Source: Bradyrhizobium acaciae (GTDB taxonomy: Bacteria; Pseudomonadota; Alphaproteobacteria; Rhizobiales; Xanthobacteraceae). From it: a stretch of 64,000 bases of DNA. A program made the position numbers and the translations under genes. Location: positions 41,001 to 105,000 of the forward strand of contig NZ_JACMYK010000006.1 in assembly GCF_020889785.1 (NCBI RefSeq). The letters are read 5' to 3'. The notes below the pieces were generated by a model. The model was not told the origin of the DNA and did not search any database. It worked only from the letters and a program-made list of their open reading frames with translations. The stretch's first letter is position 1, and each line of letters opens with the position of its first letter. This document shows, one piece after another, positions 16,001-17,998 of this stretch.

Positions 16001-17626
16001 TCAGAACTCTCCCCCCGCCCCGGGAGCCACGATTGCTGGCTTGTCCTTTGGCAGTTCAGCCACCAGCGCTTCCGTGGTCACGATCAATGACGCGACTGAT
16101 GCGGCATCCTGCAACGCCGTTCGCACCACCTTCGCCGGGTCTACGATCCCTGCCTCGATCAGGTCGACATACTCCTCGGTCTGCGCATTGAAGCCGTAGG
16201 TCGGCGAGCGCTGCTCAAGGATCTTCCCGACCACGATGGACCCCTCAACGCCGGCATTTTCGGCGATCTGCCGGATCGGACTTTCCAGCGCCTTGAGGAC
16301 GATATTGATCCCGGCCTGCACATCGGAATTGCCATGACTCAGCCGACCGATGGCGGCCTTCGCCCGCAACAACGCAACACCGCCGCCGGGCACGATGCCT
16401 TCCGCGATTGCCGCTCGCGTGGCATTGAGCGCATCGTCGACACGATCCTTCTTTTCCTTGACCTCGACCTCGGTTGCTCCACCAACGCGGATTACGGCAA
16501 CCCCGCCCGAGAGCTTGGCAAGGCGTTCCTGCAGCTTCTCGCGGTCATACTCCGAAGTGGTCTCTTCGACCTGCGCCCTGATCTGGGCGATCCGACTGTC
16601 GATATCCTTGCGCTTGCCGGCCCCGCCGACAATCGTCGTGTTCTCCTTGTCGATCCGGACGCGCTTGGCACGGCCAAGCTGCGACAGCGTCACGTTTTCG
16701 AGCTTGATTCCAAGTTCATCCGAGATCGTCTGCCCCCCGGTCAGGACTGCGATATCCTCGAGCTGAGCTTTTCGCCGATCGCCGAACCCCGGCGCCTTCA
16801 CGGCGGCCACCTTGAGGCCGCCACGAAGCCTGTTGACGACCAGGGTCGCAAGTGCCTCGCCTTCGACATCCTCGGCGACAATCAGCAACGGCTTGCCGGA
16901 CTGCGCGACCGCCTCAAGCACCGGCAGCAATGGATGCAGCGAATTCAGCTTGGCTTCATGGATCAGAAGATAGGGGTCCTCGAACTCGACCAGCAATTTC
17001 TCCGCGTTCGTGACGAAATAGGGTGACAGGTAGCCACGGTCGAACTGGAGGCCCTCCACGACATCGAGCTCGGTGTCGAGGCTCTTTGCCTCTTCGACAG
17101 TTATGACGCCATCATTGCCGACCTTCTTGACCGCATTGGCGATGATCTTTCCGACCGCAACATCGCCGTTCGCCGAGATCGTGCCGACCTGGGCGACTTC
17201 TTCGGAAGACTGCACCTTTCGCGCCCGCTTTTCGATATCCTTGATCGCCTCGGCGACCGCCAGGTCAATACCGCGCTTGAGGTCGAGAGGATTGAGGCTT
17301 GCGGCGACGGCCTTCGCGCCCTCCCGGACAATGGCTTGCGCCAGTACGGTCGCGGTCGTGGTGCCATCGCCGGCAAGATCGTTGGTCTTGGAAGCAACCT
17401 CGCGCAGAAGCTGCGCACCGATGTTCTCGTATTTGTCCTCGAGCTCGATCTCCTTGGCAACCGTCACGCCGTCCTTGGTGATCCGCGGTGCCCCGAATGC
17501 CTTTTCGATGACGACATTGCGCCCTTTGGGGCCCAGAGTCACCTTGACGGCGTTCGCAAGTGTGTCCACACCGCGCAAGAGACGATCGCGGGCATCGGTC
17601 GAGAATTTCACATCCTTTGCAGCCAT
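16001..17626 (-). CDS. groL: GroEL chaperonin paralogue lacking all internal Met and Cys
   Basis: 60-kDa chaperonin, 541 aa from MAAKDVKF. The ATP site is intact: [20 protein letters not shown] with Asp87, GGGVALLRA and the hydrolytic Asp in [11 protein letters not shown]. Apical-domain segments KAPGFGDRR and the hinge sequences are standard. The ATG at 17626 is preferred because AAGGA sits 8 nt upstream; the ATG six nt earlier is too close. After the initiator I find no Met and no Cys. Positions that are Met in ordinary GroEL are changed, for example [45 protein letters not shown] and LSQLGRAK. The (GGM)n tail is replaced by a short GAGGEF end. With Ala at position 2 the initiator should be removed, leaving a sulfur-free protein. 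It follows groES by 84 nt. Confidence 0.97.
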
Positions 17627-17710
17627 ATGCATTGTCCTTCGAGCAAACTGATCCTATCGCGCAGAAGACTGCGCGGAGCGACATCGTTGAGGTGTTGTGG
17701 ATGACGGGAT

Positions 17711-17998
17711 CTAGGCGATCACGCCGAGTATGTCGGATTCCTTGGCGATCAGCAGATCTTCTCCATTGATCTTGACTTCGGTTCCTGACCACTTTCCAAA
17801 CAGGACCCGGTCGCCCTTCTTCACGTCGAGCGGATGCAGCTTGCCGGCTTCATCTCGCGCCCCGCCACCGACGGCGACGACCTCTCCCTCCTGCGGCTTT
17901 TCTTTCGCCGTGTCGGGAATGATGATTCCACCTTTGGTCTTGTTGGTTTCCTCAATGCGGCGGATCACCACACGATCATGCAACGGACGGAAGCTCAT
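17711..17998 (-). CDS. groS: GroES co-chaperonin lacking internal Met and Cys
   Basis: 10-kDa co-chaperonin, 95 aa from [14 protein letters not shown], cap of the GroEL ring. The mobile loop ([17 protein letters not shown]), the roof region (GGGARDEAG) and the C-terminal strand ([19 protein letters not shown]) are conserved. A six-residue upstream extension is open, but MSFRPL is the family start and AGG precedes it. Ordinary rhizobial GroES has Met in the C-terminal segment LLIMKESDIMGV; here it reads [12 protein letters not shown]. No Met or Cys remains after the initiator, which should itself be cleaved before Ser2. It leads the groES-groEL operon. No CIRCE inverted repeat and no clear sigma-54 or heat-shock promoter is visible in the 200 bases upstream, so the trigger may not be heat. 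Confidence 0.96.

Follow-up and report, generated by a model that had tools for sequence, protein, structure and literature searches.

A methionine- and cysteine-free groES–groEL pair among sulfur-acquisition-type genes of Bradyrhizobium acaciae, and low-sulfur chaperonins in other Alphaproteobacteria

The housekeeping chaperonins GroEL (HSP60) and GroES (HSP10), represented for instance by PDB 1IOK, which we take to be the chaperonin 60 of Paracoccus denitrificans, form a folding machine whose larger component is among the most abundant proteins of the cell and is essential in almost all bacteria. Economy of sulfur is known from other proteins. Mazel and Marliere reportedly described in 1989 a phycocyanin isoform of Calothrix that is induced by sulfur starvation, and Baudouin-Cornu is said to have found in 2001 that the enzymes of sulfur assimilation are themselves low in sulfur. 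A further point of reference is provided by the sulfate-starvation-induced (SSI) proteins of Pseudomonas and E. coli, encoded by genes such as ssu, tau, sfn and sbp.

The window analysed here, the whole stretch of 64,000 nucleotides from Bradyrhizobium acaciae, contains a groES–groEL pair that resembles the housekeeping one in its full-length alignment, its functional residues and its gene order. It differs from it in the absence of Met and Cys, in a Met-free tail instead of the GGM tail, in the absence of the CIRCE operator, in its location beside sulfur-type genes, and in being accessory, since close relatives (94–100% identity, own genome included) occur in at least 4 of 146 Bradyrhizobium genomes. 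Like the Calothrix phycocyanin, it is a low-sulfur version of a highly abundant protein whose ordinary form is encoded alongside it; however, the phycocyanin belongs to a cyanobacterial pigment antenna and its induction was reportedly demonstrated, whereas the present pair belongs to an essential class of folding machines, evolved repeatedly, and its induction is predicted. The families neighbouring the pair are of the same kinds as the SSI proteins, and in Methylobacterium the sulfur-free pair apparently shares an operator with such genes. With the low-sulfur assimilation enzymes it has in common the elemental economy of nutrient-related proteins, but here this economy reaches a general housekeeping machine and is carried exactly to zero. 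A literature search, with most subscription journals outside its scope, brought up no earlier description of a GroEL lacking sulfur or Met, and a word search of the available parts of PMC12581299 and PMC10708946 returned no mention of a chaperonin.

The sulfur-free pair and its gene island

A first-pass annotation of the window had claimed that 540 residues of GroEL and 94 of GroES beyond the start contain neither Met nor Cys. Script counts on the translations agree, giving zero Met past the start and zero Cys in both proteins, and the motifs quoted for the pair were found as stated. Ala2 and Ser2 predict removal of the initiator Met, following the established N-terminal rule. GroEL matches TIGR02348 with 833.5 bits (cut-off 582.1; model positions 1–525 of 526) and GroES matches NF001529 with 172.7 bits (cut-off 133), and by family membership the pair is a GroEL and GroES. 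The same 8.47 Mb genome carries a second full-length groESL (locus L002), as well as four partial GroEL matches. The L002 GroEL is 80% identical to that of the window and contains 19 Met, its GroES two past the start, so that a sulfur-depleted chaperonin copy stands alongside an ordinary one in a single genome (0 versus 19 Met in GroEL). Taking the initiators as removed, which Ala2 and Ser2 predict, each GroEL14–GroES7 complex of the sulfur-free type has 280 sulfur atoms fewer (14 × 19 + 7 × 2). The observation is thus real, and stronger than it was at first described.

The window GroEL aligns over its full length with solved GroELs (query positions 1–539, no domain loss). It retains D52, 87-DGTTT-91, D398 and G415, presumably of the ATP site, and Y199, Y203, F204, L234, L237, L259, V263 and V264, which we take to be the peptide-binding residues, are present and unchanged. 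The Asp expected at position 495 is not at that index, a DPAK motif lying one residue further on. The mobile loop is present in GroES. The ATP-site and mobile-loop residues are therefore kept, as had been proposed from the first reading.

The pair is surrounded by genes of organosulfur-scavenging type, in accordance with the island that the first-pass annotation had recognised (Table 1). Several of the island products contain very little sulfur, and the Met+Cys content of the ATPases and permeases is 1.5–4.2%. The luciferase-like monooxygenase (LLM) frame adjoining groES contains 2.1% Met+Cys, and its annotated start probably lies too far upstream. The Met- and Cys-free protein of the NlpA/MetQ type has no lipobox Cys, a residue usual in this lipoprotein family; it has a plain, signal-peptide-like N-terminus, and its closest other match in the genome is 53% identical. 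The stripping of many island products that are presumably abundant would fit a sulfur cost weighted by abundance.

Table 1. Features of the window (Met counted past the start where so indicated).
Feature	Coordinates	Strand	Remarks
Aliphatic-sulfonate (SsuA family-like) binding protein	749..1837	-	
Family-5 substrate-binding protein	1993..3651	-	2 Met, 0 Cys in 552 aa
DszC/SfnB-like oxidoreductase	5463..6662	+	2 Met, 0 Cys
NtaA/DmoA-type FMN monooxygenase	6678..8075	+	4 Met, 0 Cys
Opp-type permeases and ATPases	9507..13416	+	ordinary sulfur content, 2.2–4.2%
Family-5 (Opp/Nik-type) substrate-binding protein	13413..15008	-	2 Met, 1 Cys in 531 aa
NlpA/MetQ-type substrate-binding protein	15018..15887	-	1 Met, 1 Cys
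groEL without Met or Cys past the initiator	16001..17626	-	541 aa, stop codon within coordinates; TIGR02348
groES without Met or Cys past the initiator	17711..17998	-	95 aa; NF001529
groES upstream region	17999..18218	-	CIRCE absent; block with TTTGMCATGGACA
Luciferase-like (SfnG/SsuD-type) monooxygenase (LLM)	18219..19484	-	9 Met, 0 Cys, 421-aa frame
SfnB/DszC-like flavin oxidoreductase	19315..20541	-	1 Met, 0 Cys in 408 aa
Fused Opp/Nik-type ABC ATPase	20541..22610	-	
NlpA/MetQ-type binding protein	26261..27043	-	0 Met, 0 Cys past start
SsuA-like binding protein, SsuC-type permease, SsuB-type ATPase	27598..30279	+	
Family-5 substrate-binding protein	30266..31876	+	536 aa, 0 Met, 0 Cys past start

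Distribution, origins and selection

A first search for homologues gave 119 listed proteins and the query, of which 114 and the query are 530–550 aa long; P0003, P0004, P0005, P0046 and P0097, of other lengths, were set aside. The Met content of these 115 listed sequences is bimodal, 86 having 0–1 Met and no Cys and 29 having 14–21 Met, and 81 contain neither Met nor Cys at all. Within Bradyrhizobium, the remaining best matches among the matches listed are 79–81% identical to the window GroEL (the best matches of G030, G033, G045, G090, G100 and G101 were not among the matches listed), and 26 ordinary GroEL copies from the fetched loci of the genus (L010–L035) contain 15–19 Met. A search with a DNA pattern that demands a codon other than Met at four conserved sites of a proteobacterial-type sequence gave 41 loci of the sulfur-free type among the 84,980 species of a collection, all of them alphaproteobacterial by name; other solutions or other phyla could be missed, as the pattern fixes those four sites. 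The loci belong to Bradyrhizobium, Methylobacterium, Methylorubrum, Labrys, Ancylobacter, Pseudochelatococcus, Hansschlegelia, Methylopila, a Rhizobium, Nitrospirillum, Niveispirillum, Azospirillum, Skermanella, Rhodopila and several other metagenome-assembled genomes (MAGs).

For the 39 loci in searchable genomes, up to 20 kb around each was taken; the other two (L044 and L055) have no Met in the parts of GroEL obtained. No Met past the start was counted in 36 of the 39 GroELs (L123 and L124 are shortened by contig ends), the exceptions being L138 and L140 with one Met each and L122, from Skermanella, with three, and all 39 frames are free of Cys. GroES, on which the pattern placed no demand, is present at 38 loci, with no Met past the start in 34 and a single one in L116, L122, L131 and L146. 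Forty hand-chosen Met-bearing paralogues from the same genomes served as controls, with 12–21 Met in GroEL and 1–3 Met in the 37 GroES found; L121 is a further Met-rich copy from Skermanella. The L140 frame, from Bradyrhizobium tropiciagri, matches the window GroEL at 97% identity as far as a break close to the C-terminus. The GroEL of Skermanella aerolata (L122) is only partly stripped, and its locus still has CIRCE and lacks sulfur markers in the vicinity; it is perhaps an intermediate or a reverting copy.

In a quick tree of 89 GroELs the 42 low-sulfur rows (0–3 Met) form three groups, Rhizobiales with 35 rows, Azospirillales with four and Rhodopila with three, each with an SH-aLRT of 100 and each beside Met-bearing kin. 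A more careful tree was built from 43 chosen rows after dropping every column holding Met or Cys (43 of 570), a conservative treatment because the shared loss of Met would draw the groups together. Its supported branches force three changes and keep the low-sulfur groups apart, and the AU test rejects a single sulfur-free clade (log-likelihood 262.8 lower, p 1e-8). Low-Met GroEL therefore arose at least three times in Alphaproteobacteria, and a single ancient sulfur-free lineage spread by transfer is rejected as a full account. The sulfur-free group of Rhizobiales forms a single clade in the full tree and loses its resolution when the Met columns are removed, and one origin followed by transfer or loss is possible within this order. 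A search with the Rhodopila protein listed 119 rows beyond repeats, 36 with 0–1 Met and 0–1 Cys and 83 with 15–19 Met and 1–2 Cys. The latter, a small number of which bear the names Rhodopila or Acetobacteraceae, are 86–88% identical to the sulfur-free Rhodopila protein, which shares only 72% identity with the window GroEL. It thus appears that the stripping of GroEL, together with its GroES, took place separately in Rhizobiales, in Azospirillales and in Rhodopila-type Acetobacteraceae.

The first-pass annotation had also placed the changes at sites where Met is usually conserved. All 18 aligned Met sites of the L002 paralogue are changed in the window GroEL, compared with 89 of 522 other sites (17%; Fisher p 6.5e-14), in line with that placement, and for this reason the absence of Met is not a matter of chance. 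The same holds in six of six pairs spanning all three origins, in which all of the 15–18 aligned Met/Cys sites are changed versus 11–20% of the others; between the sulfur-free Rhodopila GroEL and one Met-bearing relative, 16 of 16 aligned Met/Cys sites differ versus 58 of 525 others. Columns that are Met in all 29 Met-bearing homologues contain Leu, Ile, Val, Phe, Gln and others in the 86 low-Met proteins, and several of these columns still vary within the low-Met clade (L/I/F/Q/T/V), though not to Met. In the tree of the Rhizobiales sulfur-free proteins, four of 1577 changes lead into Met or Cys, fewer than the 24.7 expected from Met-bearing kin (14 of 895; p 4e-4); the Rhodopila set alone shows the same trend (2 of 246 versus 11 of 524), which is not significant (p 0.16). 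The sulfur-depleted state of GroEL is kept by selection, with the Rhodopila set not significant by itself. Chance or annotation error was ruled out, the frames being open, typical of GroEL and GroES, and repeated across many genomes. Neutral drift or a composition bias of a redundant paralogue, a reading to which the presence of another full-length groEL in the genome lends itself, is refuted by the all-or-none loss of Met sites. The continued variation of the former Met sites, the scarcity of changes into Met or Cys, the origins numbering at least three and the parallel stripping of GroES all contradict it as well, and its probability is vanishingly small. Six neighbours of the Pseudochelatococcus contaminans locus, with 0.9–5.1% Met+Cys, also argue against it, as they do against a low sulfur content of the whole genome as the cause in Pseudochelatococcus.

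Genomic company and upstream regions

Neighbouring families were compared between 40 sulfur-free and 40 control loci by seedless clustering of the open frames within about 9 kb, the clusters being named after their members in the window or by the profile models below. Families of sulfur-acquisition type are concentrated around the sulfur-free pairs: ABC ATPases at 26 versus one locus, luciferase-like monooxygenases at 18 versus one, SsuC-type permeases at 14 versus none, family-5 binding proteins at 13 versus one, SfnB-type oxidoreductases at 10 versus none, an SsuA-like group at 10 versus three, and NlpA/MetQ at seven versus none. Profile models for eight markers, seeded from the window and the sulfur-free loci and applied to hand-chosen controls over the same distance, found at least one marker at 32 of 40 sulfur-free versus 3 of 40 control loci, and at least two at 29 versus one. 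Some of the markers are generic, L115 being counted by a family-5 binding protein alone and L138 by a pyridoxal-phosphate (PLP) enzyme alone, and the marker p-values overstate independence because many of the loci are close relatives. Independent origins share this company: an NMT1/SsuA-like binding protein and a PLP enzyme of Cys/Met metabolism adjoin groEL in Rhodopila (L107), and an LLM monooxygenase with NMT1 and NlpA binding proteins lies near the Nitrospirillum locus. Of the eight sulfur-free loci without markers, three are of Pseudochelatococcus type and one is of Skermanella. Three more belong to Methylobacterium/Methylorubrum and have the palindrome treated further on, one of these three being on a contig of 8.4 kb, and the last of the eight is on a 4.8 kb contig. 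A counterexample is L168 of Methylobacterium sp. E-066, a Met-rich paralogue (19 Met) with a perfect CIRCE among genes of LLM, SfnB and SsuA type. The expectation that a low-Met GroEL always lies by ssu/dsz/sfn-type genes is thus borne out at most loci, by markers or a sulfur-type operator, and fails at the Pseudochelatococcus-type and Skermanella loci. The opposite case, a lineage that is Met-free as a whole regardless of its context, does not agree with at least three origins and a sulfur-type context in most loci.

CIRCE was not found upstream of the window groES, where the best candidate mismatches 9 of 18 fixed positions, as in shuffled sequences; the ordinary groESL of the same genome (L002) has a CIRCE with one mismatch, read by eye. 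With up to four mismatches allowed, CIRCE lies upstream of groES in 36 of 38 control paralogues versus 5 of 41 sulfur-free loci (only one of 395 shuffles had fewer than six mismatches). These five are the Pseudochelatococcus-type loci (0, 0 and 1 mismatches), Skermanella (1) and a MAG of Azospirillaceae (4), the last of which combines sulfur markers with its CIRCE-like site. The block with TTTGMCATGGACA is kept upstream in six of six aligned sulfur-free loci of Bradyrhizobium. As a sulfur operator of this genus TTTGMCATGGACA finds no support, with a single occurrence in its own genome; no convincing site common to the window groES and other promoters of the window was found, and a word-pair search in 17 groups of sulfur-free upstream regions gave no excess over shuffles.

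A different picture was obtained in Methylobacterium and Methylorubrum, where the palindrome GTTCTNTWAAAAGAAC lies upstream of the sulfur-free groES in nine of nine aligned loci, and its exact form just upstream of this gene in 14 of 14 genomes. Six genomes contain few exact copies and none of the reversed control pattern, and in M. indicum all four are within 44 kb, on the groESL contig. With one mismatch allowed, the 14 genomes contain 100 matches versus 14 for the control, the strands being counted apart. From about 59 other places in the list, 20 were chosen by hand for annotation, and at 17 of them a sulfur-type gene or operon follows, the other three being without assignment. A cysJ-like gene follows at four chosen sites (two scanned, two recognised by the same N-terminus), a metN-like gene with NlpA at three (two scanned), and SsuA-like and SfnB-like genes at two each; NlpA, an SsuC-type permease, a sulfate-binding protein, an LLM monooxygenase and a family-5 binding protein follow at one or two each. 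Several of these assignments fall below the NCBIfam cut-offs, those of the sulfate-binding protein and the DmoA-type LLM being above them. Five more sites lead to an SfnB-like gene, an LLM gene, and genes for a family-5 binding protein, a sulfate-binding protein and an SsuA-like protein; at L209, one of the five, the nearest frame on one side is without assignment. Across L207–L211 and L229–L248 the palindrome appears as GTTCTNTNAAAAGAAC before genes of the cysJ, metN, sulfate-binding-protein, ssuA, sfnB and LLM types. Five Methylobacterium genomes have in common the site GTTCCATAAAAAGAAC, the following gene being without assignment in L233 and L239. We propose GTTCTNTNAAAAGAAC as a candidate operator of the sulfur regulon in these genera, and the sulfur-free pair looks like a member of that regulon in Methylobacterium because the palindrome also precedes genes of sulfur type.

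Function, competing explanations and meaning

In Pseudochelatococcus contaminans, P. lubricantis and a Chelatococcus MAG, a single GroEL was detected with two queries, and in each of them it is Met-free, with 0–1 Met in GroES. These are the Pseudochelatococcus-type loci (L118, L131 and L146), which have CIRCE and no sulfur markers nearby, and therefore the low-sulfur state can persist without a sulfur circuit. In P. contaminans the neighbours of groEL include MurJ, HisG and two tRNA synthetases, the histidyl one and one of class I, in clusters common to the other two. Since GroEL is essential in almost all bacteria and no other copy was found in these three genomes, the Met-free pair should suffice for life, unless the assemblies miss a copy, which implies that Met-free GroEL would fold proteins well enough to live on.

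We consider it highly probable that the pair acts as a sulfur-sparing stand-in for the ordinary housekeeping machine, with synthesis predicted at times of sulfur shortage. The loss of every Met, with Leu, Ile, Val and Gln as the main replacements, is likely due to selection against sulfur and not to drift, while the ATP site, the peptide-binding site and the GroES loop were kept. Under sulfur scarcity the sulfur-free edition would replace the ordinary chaperonin, allowing folding without spending scarce sulfur, with a predicted benefit in fitness. Most of the sulfur-free pairs are without the CIRCE/HrcA heat-shock operator, and those of Methylobacterium would be controlled from the palindrome they have in common with sulfur genes. 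Some observations sit against the sulfur-sparing reading: no operator common to other sulfur genes was found in Bradyrhizobium, and the Pseudochelatococcus-type loci, the Azospirillaceae MAG, L168, the Rhodopila p of 0.16 and the LLM frame with nine Met do not follow it.

The flavin-dependent oxygenase-type genes among the neighbours could suggest instead an oxidation-proof chaperonin, from which Met and Cys were removed to resist reactive oxygen arising from flavin monooxygenases or from sulfur starvation; according to the available part of PMC12581299, the genes induced by sulfur starvation in P. aeruginosa include antioxidant ones. This explanation is unlikely, as two island binding proteins of periplasmic type are free of Met and Cys while the ATPases and permeases hold 1.5–4.2%, a pattern that an abundance-weighted cost fits better, and as the Methylobacterium palindrome is common to cysJ-, sulfate-uptake- and metN-like genes. 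Very improbable is a client-specific chaperonin that folds the island oxygenases and whose lack of sulfur merely reflects co-expression with them. Oxygenase genes do recur nearby in the profile-model counts (LLM at 18 of 40 loci, SfnB-type at 13 of 40), but the neighbours differ by lineage, being a PLP enzyme of Cys/Met metabolism and a 2OG oxygenase in Rhizobium and a binding protein and a PLP enzyme in Rhodopila. In addition, the peptide-binding residues are unchanged, and the three Pseudochelatococcus-type genomes have this GroEL as the only one found.

The sulfur-sparing stand-in leads to a wider proposal, which we regard as probable: at least three alphaproteobacterial lineages would have independently rebuilt GroEL–GroES sulfur-free and wired it into the sulfur-starvation response, the folding machine being exchanged when sulfur runs out, and in Pseudochelatococcus the low-sulfur edition would be the sole, essential chaperonin. 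The exchange of chaperonin editions under sulfur limitation is a testable prediction, and a candidate sulfur-regulon operator in Methylobacterium is gained. A natural GroEL and GroES free of Met and Cys would be useful for labelling and oxidation studies, and if the single-GroEL genomes do depend on a Met-free GroEL, the chaperonin cycle would require no Met. If the proposal is true, elemental economy has extended, more than once and down to exactly zero, to a machine that is essential and nearly universal; this would be a rare and clean example of convergent evolution in which the quantity under selection, sulfur atoms, is known.
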